From NCBI RefSeq assembly GCF_014279655.1, contig NZ_CP047946.1, positions 1,364,001 to 1,428,000 of the forward strand: 64,000 nt of DNA, in the 5' to 3' direction. Positions 26,277 through 58,694 of the stretch are shown one piece after another; within the stretch, counting starts at the first letter, position 1; every line of letters starts with the position of its first letter. The translations under genes were made by a program, and so were the position numbers. The notes beneath the pieces were generated by a model. It was given only the letters and a program-made list of their open reading frames with translations. It did not search any database and had not been told where the DNA came from. This DNA is from Synechococcus sp. ROS8604. Lineage in GTDB: Bacteria > Cyanobacteriota > Cyanobacteriia > PCC-6307 > Cyanobiaceae.

Positions 26277-26363
26277 CGGAGAGGGAGGGATTCGAACCCT
26301 CGATAGAGTTGCCCCTATACAGCATTTCCAGTGCTGCGCCTTCGACCACTCGGCCACCTCTCC
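26277..26363 (-). tRNA. tRNA-Ser (anticodon GGA)
   Basis: A class II tRNA with a long variable arm, 87 nt without CCA. The acceptor stem GGAGAGG pairs with CCTCTCC and the discriminator base is G. The anticodon loop CTGGAAA contains GGA, reading UCC and UCU serine codons. The T-arm has GGTTCGAATCC. CCA is not encoded. An intrinsic terminator follows directly. Confidence 0.96.
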
Positions 26364-53328: not shown

Positions 53329-54729
53329 ATGGCCGCTTCCATTGAATTCAACGACTTTCAAGGTCTCCGTTGGCCAACCCTGTTTCGATTAAGTCTGTTT
53401 CAGGCTTGTCTTGGAACCCTTGCGGTGTTGTTCACTGGGACCTTCAATCGGATTCTGATCACAGAGTTGGCCTTTCCTGCCTTGCTGGCGGGTGGAGGGT
53501 TGGGATTTGAGCAACTGGTTGCTCCAGCACGGGTGCTGTTCGGACATCTCAGTGATTCCCATCCCTTAATGGGAAAACATCGGACGCCCTATGTCCTGCT
53601 TGGAACCATTGCCATCTGTTTGTTGGCGATTCTGAGTGTTCCAGTCAGTTTCATGGTGAGGGAAGCCCTCGATAGTGGATCCCCGTTGGTGGCCGCTGCA
53701 GGAATTGCAGCATTTTGTGGCTTATTTGCTCTCTACGGATTAGGGACGTCAATGGCAAGTACCTCCTATTTAGCCCTTGTGATTGACCGCACAACAGAAG
53801 AACAAAGGCCGCGATGCATCGGTGTGATTTGGGCGATGCTCACGGTGGGAATCATCGTGGGAGCGATTGCTATCAGTCTTGCTGTCCGCTCGATCGACGG
53901 CATTTCAGATCCCGTGATTCTTCAGAGCTGGCTGCAGAAGTTCATGATTGCGATTACGTCGATCGTGATGCTGCTGGCCATTGTTTCGACCTGGGGAGTG
54001 GAGAAACCAATCACGCCTGGCGCTGTGCGTCCAGTTCAGGATTTGATCACACTTCAGGATGCCTGGAAGGTGGTGACTTCAAGTCGACAAATCGTGATCT
54101 TCTTTGGATTCTTAGTTCTATTCACGATGGGGCTCTTTCTTCAGGATCCAATTCTGGAAAGTTTTGGTGCTGAAGTGTTTGGTATGCCTGTGTCTAAGAC
54201 CACGTTGCTGAATGCTTGGTGGGGATCAGGAACCCTTGTTGGCTTACTGGTTGCTGGCTGGTTTATTACCCCAAAACTCGGAAAGTTGGCCACTGCCCGT
54301 CTGGGTTGCTGGATGGTGATGGGCTCCTTATTTCTGTTGTTAATCAGTGGCTGGCAGCAAGCATCCGGACTTCTTCCTGTGGTGATGGTGCTGTTTGGTT
54401 TAGCTGCAGGCGTTGGTACCAACAGCGCACTCACCTTGATGCTGGATCTCACCTTGCCCGCCATGGCAGGAACCTTCGTGGGCATTTGGGGTTTAGCGCA
54501 AGCCCTCTCTCGGGGCTTTGGCAAGGTTGTCGGCGGTGGGTTGCTCGATCTTGGTCGACAGATTCTTCCCAATGCTGGACCAATGGCTGGTTATGGCTTG
54601 GTGTTTTCGATTGAAATTCTGGTGATGGCGAGCGCTTTGATTGTGCTGAATCAGCTCAGCGTCGGTCAATTCAGAGAATCCACCACACAACGCCTCGACA
54701 TGGTGTTGATGGCCGAAATCGACGGTTAA
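53329..54729 (+). CDS. PucC/BCD-family MFS transporter
   Basis: A 466-residue protein with about twelve membrane segments. Early text LRWPTLFRLSLFQACLG and EQLVAPARVLFGHLSDSHPLMGKHRTPYVLLG fits the bacteriochlorophyll-delivery (PucC) MFS family found in all phototrophs. Members help assemble light-harvesting or chlorophyll proteins. I chose the ATG at 53329 (MAASIEFNDF); a GTG two codons upstream overlaps the clpS stop. It converges with a small gene with 1 bp between stops. Confidence 0.9.
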   Translation: MAASIEFNDFQGLRWPTLFRLSLFQACLGTLAVLFTGTFNRILITELAFPALLAGGGLGFEQLVAPARVLFGHLSDSHPLMGKHRTPYVLLGTIAICLLAILSVPVSFMVREALDSGSPLVAAAGIAAFCGLFALYGLGTSMASTSYLALVIDRTTEEQRPRCIGVIWAMLTVGIIVGAIAISLAVRSIDGISDPVILQSWLQKFMIAITSIVMLLAIVSTWGVEKPITPGAVRPVQDLITLQDAWKVVTSSRQIVIFFGFLVLFTMGLFLQDPILESFGAEVFGMPVSKTTLLNAWWGSGTLVGLLVAGWFITPKLGKLATARLGCWMVMGSLFLLLISGWQQASGLLPVVMVLFGLAAGVGTNSALTLMLDLTLPAMAGTFVGIWGLAQALSRGFGKVVGGGLLDLGRQILPNAGPMAGYGLVFSIEILVMASALIVLNQLSVGQFRESTTQRLDMVLMAEIDG

Positions 54730-54730
54730 A

Positions 54731-54958
54731 TCAAGCGGCAGGTTTGCGAGTGGAGAGGGTTAGGGATAACAGGGCTTTTGTGCGCAGACGTTGGGTTTGA
54801 GCGGCAAACACATACCGAATCACTTTTCCAGGGCAAAGAGCCAGGCCGCGCACTTCGTCTCCGTGGACCTCTGCTGTAAGAATCTTGGTTTGAGGGCCCA
54901 TTCGAGATGTCAAAGGAGCTGAGATCTCAGTTCTGAGGGAATCGACAGATCGGAGCAT
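54731..54958 (-). CDS. Small conserved hypothetical protein
   Basis: A 75-residue soluble protein (MLRSVDSLRTEISAPLTSRM through TKALLSLTLSTRKPAA) that I do not recognise. Codon use looks like coding sequence. The segment TKILTAEVHGDEVRGLALCPGKVIRYVF could be a small beta domain. I chose the ATG at 54958; a TTG at 54967 is possible. It diverges from the DUF2103 gene with about 70 bp between starts. Confidence 0.6.
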   Translation of the reverse strand: MLRSVDSLRTEISAPLTSRMGPQTKILTAEVHGDEVRGLALCPGKVIRYVFAAQTQRLRTKALLSLTLSTRKPAA

Positions 54959-55031
54959 GGCTTGCAAGGAACGCTTACCTGATCTCTAGCCAGAGTGGTT
55001 AACTTAAACAAGCTTTACTTTTGAACCTGGA

Positions 55032-55316
55032 GTGGGCCGTCTTGTTGTTACCCATAGCACCTACGTGAAGGGTCTAATCCCTTGGCTCAAGGTGTTGGCG
55101 AATGACCCACAGATCCAGACCATTACCCCAGGCGTGATTGCAAGGGTGAAGGGGCGTTGCCAAGACTTAACGCTGAGACCATCTGTTCCGATCCGAGGTG
55201 GTTTCAAGCTGATGGCACGCCGTGGCCGGACTGCTCAAGAGGTCTTTGTGATTACAAGCTTGGACAAATCAGACTTAATCGATCGATTGGCCAGCTCTAG
55301 GTCTTCGATTCTCTAA
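55032..55316 (+). CDS. DUF2103 family protein
   Basis: A 94-residue basic protein starting with GTG: MGRLVVTHSTYVKGLIPWLKVL, then IQTITPGVIARVKGRC and GFKLMARRGRTAQEVFVIT. It fits the DUF2103 family (predicted metal-binding, cyanobacterial) and resembles small RNA-binding folds. Function is unknown. The GTG is chosen because the following sequence matches the family opening. Confidence 0.72.
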   Translation: MGRLVVTHSTYVKGLIPWLKVLANDPQIQTITPGVIARVKGRCQDLTLRPSVPIRGGFKLMARRGRTAQEVFVITSLDKSDLIDRLASSRSSIL

Positions 55317-55398
55317 TCGAATGGGGCAGCGATGCCTTGCTTGTTCCAGCTATCGAATCTGATCGTGGAATCTGATCTTCCTAAGCCAATAGGATGGT

Positions 55399-55713
55399 TC
55401 AGGATTGAGCTAACGCAAAGTTTTTAACAACTTTCCATCTGGATCTGATCTCTCGGTCCTCTTTGCTGTTTCCAGTTTCATAATCACCCTCGTACCCCAA
55501 AATCATTGTTTTAGCCTGATTCAGCTTGCATGCACGGTTAAACAGGGAGTAGTTCATTCCAAACCGTGTGGTTTCTTTTCTGGTTGCTTCTTGCCAGTTA
55601 TTGCAACGCTCCTCTGCTTCAACACCTTCTGCCATGTTGTCAGGCGACATGAAGTCGTTGCACGCAACAAGGCCTAGGCCTAACGCGATAGAGACCAATG
55701 CAAGGACTTTCAT
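55399..55713 (-). CDS. Putative small lipoprotein
   Basis: A 104-residue protein with a signal peptide and lipobox (LGLGLVACNDF, cysteine at about 18). The mature part has two more cysteines (ERCNNWQEA and RACKLNQA) that could form a disulfide, and a GYEGDYETGN loop. I do not recognise the family. It is bordered by gene-poor sequence upstream. Confidence 0.6.
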   Translation of the reverse strand: MKVLALVSIALGLGLVACNDFMSPDNMAEGVEAEERCNNWQEATRKETTRFGMNYSLFNRACKLNQAKTMILGYEGDYETGNSKEDREIRSRWKVVKNFALAQS

Positions 55714-56344
55714 CTATGAAGCTTCATTGACACTATTTTAACCTCTTGACTGTGGCAGGTTCAACGATTGCAACCGTTGCTCCTTTGTTCCAGAACCACG
55801 ATTGGATCACCTCTAATCGAGGCCTTTAAAGACTGCTCTTCGTAAGAGATGCTGAATTATATTGCAAGCGGCTAGTTGGTTATTGTTCTGTTTCCAGGCT
55901 CTCTAAAAGAATGGCCGTTCCAAGGATGACAAGGGCAGCTGGAAGAATAGTTGCCAACCTGTTGACTTTAGATTTGCGCTTGAAAATGTACGTATCATCG
56001 TTCTTTTGTGTACATTTTTTAATCTAGAGGGATGAATGCTTTGTGGTGTGAGTTTTCGGTTGGCGTTGCCTTAGAGAGGCCTGAGATCCAGGCGGAAGAC
56101 CATTTTAAGTGCAATATATGAGTGCAAAATAAATTCGGTGGTTGTTGATTCCTGAATTGAATAGAAGCCTCCTGTAAGATTTTTGTTGATTGTGTTTAAG
56201 CTAAACACAAAGATACTATTAGAAGAAAAGATATCTAAGTTCTTATTGCTTACCAGGAGAAGCGTCGGATTTGTTTTTGCTGCTTTCAAGTGATGTGTAG
56301 GCGACTCTCTTTGCTGGTTTGGTCGCTTTCAACCAGTCAAATAA
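55714..56344. other. Gene-poor stretch
   Basis: About 630 bp with no well-supported gene. It contains a minus-strand frame with a membrane-protein character but no normal start (listed separately), a minus-strand 72-codon frame (56071-56289) with poor coding character, and several weak hairpins. The part from 56090 to 56260 is AT-rich. Confidence 0.6.
55880..56023 (-). other. Possible remnant or frameshifted small membrane protein
   Basis: A 47-codon open stretch ends in a TAA at 55880. It encodes a basic stretch (YIFKRKSKVNR), then a convincing membrane segment (LATILPAALVILGTAILLES), then an acidic tail (LETEQ). No ATG or GTG opens the frame; a TAG precedes it. An ATG one frame away opens MYTKER and then stops, so a one-base change could have split a small gene. 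Could also be chance. Confidence 0.22.
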
Positions 56345-56530
56345 CGACTCAAAGGTCCTGATCGTGAGATGGGTCTAATTTTGGTGAACCGCTGTGCCGT
56401 GCGAGCCCCAGTGTTCGACCTGGAGTTACCAGAAGGGGCGAAAGATTTCGAGAGGATTCGTTTCCGGTTACAAGACCGGTTTACGGCACCAACACGACAG
56501 TCACCCCATGTCGAAAAAGAGTCAGATCAG
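56345..56530 (+). ncRNA. Structured RNA candidate, possibly 6S RNA
   Basis: Nested complementary segments: ATGG/CCAT (56369-56372 with 56506-56509), GGTGA/TCACC (56383-56387 with 56501-56505), GTGCCGT/ACGGCAC (56394-56400 with 56483-56489). They enclose a GCCCC/GGGGC hairpin (56405-56439) with an inner CTGG/CCAG stem, and a CCGGT/ACCGG hairpin (56464-56479). The length and the position beside purK recall the cyanobacterial 6S RNA gene as I remember it. Strand and ends are uncertain. Confidence 0.3.
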
Positions 56531-56564
56531 AGCACTAGAGAAAGGCTGTCACCAACACAGCAGT

Positions 56565-57770
56565 TCATGACCAATTTAGAGGAAGAGGCCAGATTTCACG
56601 AATGCGTTGCAGCATTTGCTGTCCTCTCTCTGCTCGTTCATCAGCGGTACGGCCATTGAGCAAGGTGGTGACATGTCCCACTTTGCGTCCAGGGATTTCA
56701 TTTTTTCCGTACCAATGCAGATGCAAGCCTTCGATCGAGCGTAGTTTTGAAAGGCGTTCCTCAAGCGGCTCAGCCTGGTCTGCGCCGAGTCCAAGCAGAT
56801 TGACCATCAAGGAACCATCGGCAATAAATTCTGGATTGGGAACATCCAGCCCTGCTGCAATGCACAGTTGTTGATCAAATTGACTGCTGGAACAAGCCTC
56901 AATTGAAAAATGACCTGAATTATGCGTCCGAGGAGCTATTTCATTGACAAATAATCCTTCTGATCCATAGAAAAACTCCAAGGTCATCACACCCACGTAG
57001 CTGAGCTTTGTGAGCAGCGAGGCCGCAATGTTGTAGGCCGTAGCCTCAACGATTTGACTCACGGATGCGGGGGCAATCACCCAGTCGCAAACTTGATTTT
57101 TTTGATGCGTTTCGGCCAAAGGAAGACTGCGAATACGCCCCTTTGCATCTCGGCTGACGACGAGGGCAAGCTCCTGCTCATAGGAAACCCACGCTTCGAT
57201 TAACCACTCATTGGCATCGACATTTCGAAGCAACTGAGCCAAGCCGTTGAGATCTTCCACAACCCGTGTGCCCTTGCCGTCGTAACCGCCGTAGGCAGCC
57301 TTGGCCATCACAGGAAAAGTCCATCCGTTCGGCAACGATGGCGAACCAGGATTGAGTTCAGCCAATGAAATCCAATCTGGACTTGGAATTAAAAGATCAT
57401 CGAGAAGGCGTCGCTGGGACAACTTATTAACGAGCGGCACCAAACTCGCTAATGAGGGAGTGAATTGCACGCCCTGTCGCTCGAGAGGCATCAGAGCGTC
57501 CACAGCGATCCATTCGTTTTCGAACGTGATACCTAGGCAGTGCGTGGAGAGCTCCCTCGTTGCAAGGGCATCGGTGGATCCAGCGATCACTAAATCCTTC
57601 GCCATGGAGGCAGCAGGGTCTTCAGCTTTTGACGCCTGTACGGCCAGCGTCAAACCCCGTGTTTTGGCAGCTTCACCAAGCATGAGGGCCAGTTGCCCGC
57701 CACCGATTACCCCAATTGTGTTGTCAGCGCTGGGCATCCGTTGCAGCTCGGTCTGAGTGAAGCTTTGCAT
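56565..57770 (-). CDS. purK: N5-carboxyaminoimidazole ribonucleotide synthetase
   Basis: A 401-residue ATP-grasp enzyme of purine synthesis. The N-terminal loop is IGVIGGGQLALMLGEAA, the ATP-grasp core FPVMAKAAYGGYDGKGTRVV, and the catalytic region VNEIAPRTHNSGHFSIEAC. It carboxylates AIR with bicarbonate and ATP. It follows the sugar-type permease gene after 27 bp on the same strand. purE is not in the window. Confidence 0.95.
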   Translation of the reverse strand: MQSFTQTELQRMPSADNTIGVIGGGQLALMLGEAAKTRGLTLAVQASKAEDPAASMAKDLVIAGSTDALATRELSTHCLGITFENEWIAVDALMPLERQGVQFTPSLASLVPLVNKLSQRRLLDDLLIPSPDWISLAELNPGSPSLPNGWTFPVMAKAAYGGYDGKGTRVVEDLNGLAQLLRNVDANEWLIEAWVSYEQELALVVSRDAKGRIRSLPLAETHQKNQVCDWVIAPASVSQIVEATAYNIAASLLTKLSYVGVMTLEFFYGSEGLFVNEIAPRTHNSGHFSIEACSSSQFDQQLCIAAGLDVPNPEFIADGSLMVNLLGLGADQAEPLEERLSKLRSIEGLHLHWYGKNEIPGRKVGHVTTLLNGRTADERAERGQQMLQRIREIWPLPLNWS

Positions 57771-57797
57771 TCTCTCCTTTTAGCAACGATGGCAGAC

Positions 57798-58694
57798 CTA
57801 AATAAGGCTTCGTTCTCCTCCGAACGCAAGTCGAATGGCTGTTAACAATAAAACCAGTAAGAACAGAGCAAGGCCAACCGTGCAGGCATAACTGATTTCT
57901 AGTTCTGCAAAGGCCTGGTCATAGACGTAATAAACCAGGGTCCTTGTGGAGTCTGCAGGACCTCCCTGGGTCATGAGAAACACCTCTTCAAACACCTTGG
58001 TTGCAGCAATGGCGGAGATCACGGCCACCAGGGTGACGTACGGCCTTAGCAATGGAAGGGTGATGTCGACGTGCTTGCGCCAGCCTTCACTTCCATCCAG
58101 CTCAGCGGCCTCGTACAGCTCCTTTGGGATGCCCTGAAGTCCCCCCAGGAAAATCACCATGTAGTAGCCCAGCCCCTTCCAGAGGGTGACGAGCATCACG
58201 GAAGGAAGGGCCAATAATGGATTGGTTAAAAAATCAATGGGGATGAATCCTTGACCAAACAAGGTGTCAAGCCAACCGTTGATGAGACCGTTTTCGGCAT
58301 AGAGCCATCGAAAAGCAATGGCAGCCACCACGATCGACACCAACACCGGCGTATAAAAAGCAGCGCGGAGGATGTGCACACCTGGGAGGATTCGATTCAC
58401 AAGAACCGCCAGCGTTAAGGAGCCGATCACAATGGGAGGAACGACTCCGAATAAATAAATCAACGTGGTGCCGAGCACCTGATAAAACATTGGATCGCCA
58501 AGAAGTCGCTGAAAATTGGTTAAGCCGATGAATTTCAGGGGCTCGGTGACATCTAAACCTGTTTGCGTGAAACTGATCACCAGCGCCATCAATGCCGGAA
58601 TCAAAACGGACAGGCTTAGGAGAATCAGTGCAGGAGCTAAGAATCCCCAAGCAATAAGCGTGGAACGCTGTTTGGACGTTGAGGGCAGGGCCAT
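57798..58694 (-). CDS. Sugar-type ABC transporter permease (MalF/UgpA family), orphan
   Basis: A 298-residue protein with six membrane segments ([30 protein letters not shown] first) and the EAA loop [25 protein letters not shown]. It belongs to the carbohydrate-uptake-1 permease family. No partner permease, binding protein or ATPase gene is adjacent, so the substrate is unknown; partners may be encoded elsewhere. Start ATG at 58694 (GTG at 58697 also possible), 50 bp from the divergent aroB start. Confidence 0.88.

Follow-up and report, generated by a model that had tools for sequence, protein, structure and literature searches.

The end of purK in Synechococcus sp. ROS8604 raises the question of whether a structured RNA is encoded there, on which strand, and whether it is 6S RNA, a mimic of an open promoter that holds RNA polymerase carrying the housekeeping sigma factor until the synthesis of a short product RNA releases it. 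The original prediction, made from the window (i.e. the whole stretch of 64,000 nucleotides analysed), had drawn a branched fold on the plus strand at 56345-56530, next to purK and in a region with no credible gene, for which 6S RNA (ssaA/yfr7) was offered as an unsure identity. We find that the locus is almost certainly a picocyanobacterial 6S RNA gene present in one copy, that it lies on the minus strand, and that it has a putative -10-type promoter of its own at the purK end. The host itself would be, judging by its nearest relatives, of the marine Synechococcus type.

Identity, strand and extent of the gene

When the whole window was compared with Rfam 15 using cmscan, two matches scored above the gathering score, one to a tRNA and the other to RF00013 (Table 1). 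Membership of the 6S family was judged by a full-length match above the curated cut-off, and the RF00013 match has both since it runs through positions 1-187 of the 187 in the model and scores 87.2 bits (E 7.4e-16) against a gathering score of 46.4. Together with the publication of 6S RNA at the same site in sister strains (Axmann 2005, PMC1242208), this bears out the proposed identity. The significant match that had been expected on the plus strand is missing, as RF00013 matched the minus strand only in the whole window, and a permissive scan of 54700-57900 found no Rfam small RNA besides RF00013 at E up to 1. The gene was thus present where the fold had been drawn (149 of the 186 bases overlap), while the strand and both ends had been misplaced. 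Similarly, the 3' strand had seemed longer than in classic 6S, whereas on the minus strand the match spans every position of the model, and the apparent excess is probably a product of the wrong strand and ends.

Table 1. Coordinates of the features discussed, numbered from the first letter of the window.
Feature	Position	Strand	Basis or remark
6S RNA gene (RF00013; ssaA / 6Sa / yfr7)	56382-56569	minus	cmscan, covariation, 3' similarity edge
Putative -10-type box (TAAATT) for 6S	56573-56578	minus	inside last purK codons; consensus evidence
purK	56565-57770	minus	Pfam ATP-grasp E 3e-46, PurK_C E 3.5e-14
Spurious 96-aa open frame	56369-56659	plus	antisense to 6S gene and purK end; not taken as gene
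DUF2103 frame	55032-55316	plus	between PUCC-family gene and 6S
Possible lipoprotein-like frame, 104 aa	55399-55713	minus	read from sequence; no Pfam match
tRNA gene, long variable arm	26277-26363	minus	cmscan

The purK end, promoter and transcript

As originally proposed, the gene adjoins purK. It begins at the end of purK and on the same strand, the last five bases of purK (stop codon included) overlapping the start of the 6S model. This arrangement is general in the family, since all 51 loci compared have purK directly upstream in the same orientation, with gaps ranging from -5 to 56. Besides the own genome, these loci represent the 30 relatives with the highest scores and 20 more picked from the rest of the 109 genomes with matches, a choice that favours the best-scoring relatives and under-represents weak-scoring genomes. 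Overlap with purK is seen in the four same-genus loci (gaps of -5, -2, -2 and -2), with the other 47 loci showing gaps of +2 to +56. Beyond these genomes, a PurK similarity search returned at least 80 loci, 46 of which are cyanobacterial and were scanned for 6S. Among the matches listed, 6S lies behind purK and on its strand in all 18 of the closest, which include Synechococcus WH7803 and bear the titles Prochlorococcus, Synechococcus, Cyanobium or uncultured cyanobacterium, and in 8/14 and 3/14 of the remaining cyanobacterial loci; the 17 loci where 6S was not found were scanned behind purK only, some with less than 2 kb of sequence there. The linkage of purK and 6S is therefore firm in the family and patchy beyond it.

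A -10-type sequence conforming to TANNNT ends three bases ahead of the Rfam start in 40 of the 51 loci and four bases ahead in 5 more, and in the window it takes the form of the box listed in Table 1. From the usual spacing of such boxes, transcription is predicted to start probably near 56566, and the box together with the Rfam 3' end would probably give a transcript of ~180 nt. A sigma-70 scan of 56100-57000 in which a -35 box was required found no promoter. Likewise, a simple scan of the same interval found no terminator downstream of the 6S gene; two terminator-like sites were returned, one inside 6S and one inside purK, with 0.9 expected by chance. Blastn similarity (E 1e-3) with three same-genus genomes breaks off precisely at 56382, the 3' edge of 6S, and nothing more was matched in the 0.7 kb compared downstream. 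Some 1.65 kb (54730-56381) separate a PUCC-family gene from 6S.

The proximity of the two genes invites two further readings. The structure could merely be the tail of the purK mRNA rather than a separate gene, in keeping with its contact with the purK stop codon, the shared strand and the possibility of read-through. Yet the RF00013 match is full length, a conserved -10-type box belongs to the gene itself, and a separate RNA was seen on Northern blots in sister strains, with its 5' end mapped in MED4 and SS120 (PMC1242208), which makes this reading very improbable and leaves the independent 6S gene. For that gene, the location of the -10 box and predicted start inside the purK end, a peculiarity of this genus, might bring translation of the last purK codons into conflict with 6S initiation, and conversely, and tie 6S output to the expression of purine synthesis, an idea that we regard as very unlikely.

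Fold of the single sequence

As drawn on the plus strand, the fold of 56345-56530 is no better than that of shuffled sequences (-54.3 kcal/mol vs -52.8 on average for the shuffles, z -0.34; 77 of the 200 did as well), and the minus strand of this interval, which truncates the closing stem, fares likewise (z -0.95, 36/200 as good). With the ends of the Rfam match, the minus strand reaches -71.9 kcal/mol (z -4.44) and the plus strand -61.5 kcal/mol (z -3.29), one shuffle in 200 being as good in either case. A stem-rich RNA is expected to leave a mirror fold on the other strand, which is probably why stems were first seen on the plus strand. Single-sequence energy separates the strands poorly, and it is the comparative evidence that separates them.

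Counting against a literal reading of the Rfam structure, 9 of its 50 pairs are non-standard when it is mapped on the window, with an energy of -31.8 kcal/mol vs -71.9 for the best fold, and the Rfam drawing thus does not fit this RNA exactly. The large bubble expected in 6S between closing stem and apical arm comes out differently in two folds. The minimum-energy fold of the minus strand closes it by pairing GAUCUG with CAGGUC; in the consensus fold it stays partly open and CUGG pairs with CCAG in a local hairpin within the 3' strand. The invariant CCAGGUC strand thus has two possible partners, GAUCUG across the bubble and CUGG close by. These core bases are invariant in the 45 aligned rows, and covariation therefore cannot decide between the two pairings. 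Two conformations have been proposed for Prochlorococcus 6S, as cited in a review (PMC6202907), so switching of 6S is not a new idea.

Comparative evidence for fold and strand

The alignment used (A1) holds 45 of the 51 fetched loci, i.e. the own genome and its 50 relatives less six loci omitted by hand (L018, L019, L021, L022, L025 and L026) whose genera were already represented, several other genera retaining more than one row. For these 45 sequences, RNAalifold gives a consensus energy of -46.1 kcal/mol on the minus strand vs -20.1 on the plus, and the minus-strand consensus fold keeps double changes in 20 of its 44 pairs. When the Rfam structure is laid on the alignment, there are 336 G-U cells vs 84 A-C cells on the minus strand, the opposite of what an RNA read from the plus strand would show. 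With this structure, 81.3% of the cells are paired (shuffles 75.0%, slid versions 36-49%), both-sided changes occur in 24 of the 50 pairs, and 0 of 500 shuffles reached any of five measures; because the shuffles keep relatedness and a structure fitted to the window sequence, the Rfam score is relied on as well.

Compensatory change is seen in the closing stem (helix 1), where 11 of 17 pairs show both-sided change, 86.4% of the cells are paired and, at one of the 17 mapped pairs, none of the 45 rows has a standard combination. It is seen again, for the apical arm, in the terminal hairpin (helix 6), where 3 of 5 pairs show both-sided change and pairing reaches 98.7% of the cells. Helix 3 has 72.6% of its cells paired. 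Helix 4, in the apical arm, has only 45.9%, and the apical arm of this group thus departs from the Rfam drawing. Taken together, the 45 sequences support a 6S fold on the minus strand and not on the plus.

A structured RNA on the plus strand, 6S or another small RNA, is accordingly a reading that we consider exceedingly improbable: the better-than-shuffle fold that the plus strand shows at the Rfam ends is usual for the complement of a stem-rich RNA, whereas the Rfam match, the lower consensus energy, the G-U compatible changes, purK and the -10 box are all found on the minus strand.

The open frame on the opposite strand

An open frame of 96 aa runs on the plus strand against the 6S gene and the purK end, and the conserved entity might be a small protein gene of which the RNA fold is a by-product. 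This would fit with tblastn pieces that are 67-93% identical in three same-genus genomes, with a frame that is uninterrupted over the 92 aa matched in one of them (L033), and with a phase that stays open across the complement of 6S in 24 of the 45 rows. Such similarity is nevertheless expected from 6S and purK read backwards, and the phase is closed in the other 21 rows while another phase is open about as often (23/45). Moreover, the frame has no Pfam match, L032 carries a stop within it, L034 has it split between frames, and coding does not explain the paired changes in the stems. In addition, opposite-strand open frames were annotated in two of the four strains studied by Axmann 2005, WH 8102 and MIT 9313, where expression of these counterparts (SYNW1307 and PMT0670, to which the present frame is comparable) went undetected in the report while the RNA was detected (PMC1242208). 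A protein gene here is exceedingly improbable, and the earlier view that this region holds no credible gene is right for the plus strand.

Distribution in the family

A 6S gene elsewhere in the genome would have weakened the assignment. 6S was found once in the own genome (RF00013, 45 of 45 candidates scored). With the family model R1, for which 150 of the 539 first-look candidates were scored, no second copy turned up. The invariant 5' motif recurs with one mismatch at G000:C1:1849848-1849868, at the start of an ORF that, read from its sequence, looks like a GNAT acetyltransferase; this recurrence is taken as chance rather than as a second 6S.

In the family, 6S was found in 109 of 121 genomes; with completeness of 90% or more and contamination of 5% or less required, the count is 75 of 76. 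A second, partial match of 54 bits lies near a contig end (G119:C4:12-126) in one genome, for which 4% contamination is listed. Among the 12 genomes where no match was found, 11 are at 53-88% completeness and one, G025, is at 95%. A strong purK match is present in only two of them, G025 and G022. Six others (G007, G020, G033, G038, G042 and G079) have purK-query matches at 22-26% identity, which we take to be the paralogue PurT, and four (G014, G019, G036 and G043) have no purK match. In these ten genomes purK and 6S thus seem absent together, as would be expected if that piece were unassembled. In G022, the 6S gene is cut by the contig end and scores 40.9 bits, below the cut-off; the 5' motif pattern missed this copy owing to a length difference, and the pattern is therefore too strict for its failure to be evidence of absence. 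Weak R1 matches were seen in G036 (E 0.05) and G007 (E 0.65).

G025 is alone among the 12 in having an intact purK (60% identity, on a 1.58 Mb contig) without detectable 6S. No RF00013 match was found at E up to 1 in ~2 kb behind this purK and none genome-wide, and the best match to R1 has an E of 9.5 (150 of 244 candidates scored). A true loss of 6S is possible in this genome, and if its absence were confirmed, it would represent a cyanobacterium living without the 6S regulator. The surroundings of its purK (L062, i.e. G025:C1:1324300-1326500, and L052) contain only two ORFs of at least 120 aa in 4.2 kb, and this sparseness may reflect a decaying genome. At a guess, G025 could be one of the symbionts of dinoflagellates, like OmCyn or CregCyn; the term '6S RNA' does not appear in the main text of PMC11150560.

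Relation to known 6S RNAs and proposed role

The closest known counterparts are the Yfr7 RNAs of marine strains (WH 8102, WH 7803, MIT 9313, SS120 and MED4), which resemble the RNA of the window in family, strand, place behind purK and length class. In all four strains studied by Axmann 2005, yfr7 lies downstream of purK, and Northern signals were reported in eleven strains, with a single signal of ~175-185 nt in four strains each of marine Synechococcus and low-light Prochlorococcus (PMC1242208). The 6S of WH7803 (L073) aligns with the window copy through its length. The 6S locus of the window differs by the overlap of the purK end with the 6S start and by a 4-base insertion in the apical arm, which is found in all four genomes of the genus and in Synechococcus AG-679-C18 (L071) and is absent from WH7803 and the 41 other rows of A1.

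More distant members of the family are the 6S RNAs (ssaA / 6Sa) of the freshwater strains Synechocystis PCC 6803 and Synechococcus PCC 6301, described as encoded directly downstream of purK, and the authors of PMC1242208 assumed homology of yfr7 with 6Sa and 6S. Further away, E. coli 6S (ssrS) and B. subtilis 6S belong to the same Rfam family and share the promoter-mimic plan in spite of distant sequence, and both genomes scored above the RF00013 cut-off in a control search. Their gene neighbourhood differs from the cyanobacterial one.

Function has been tested in the freshwater strains. The 6S RNA of Synechocystis binds E. coli polymerase in vitro, inhibits it and templates a product RNA, and deletion of the gene in PCC 6803 slows recruitment of SigA and recovery from nitrogen starvation; the authors stated that direct tests with the native polymerase were still required (PMC5721685). 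By homology, the RNA of the window would act in the same way, and its transcription in ROS8604, its binding of polymerase, its product RNA and its physiological role would parallel those of its homologues. In such a model, minus-strand transcription of the gene would start at a -10-type promoter belonging to the gene itself, read-through from purK also being possible, and its RNA would form a long rod in which a closing stem is followed by an internal bubble and then by an apical arm, resembling the strand-separated DNA of an open promoter. Polymerase carrying the housekeeping sigma factor would bind this rod in place of promoters, and when nucleotides return it would use the bubble as template for a short product RNA and be released.

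The 6S gene described here is already known, being the same gene as published in another strain, and the value of the present analysis lies in an annotation fix, that of the strand and ends of a 6S gene easily masked by the false frame on the opposite strand. In cyanobacteria, the outcome of its action would be to aid the replacement of group 2 sigma factors by SigA as cells recover from nitrogen starvation.
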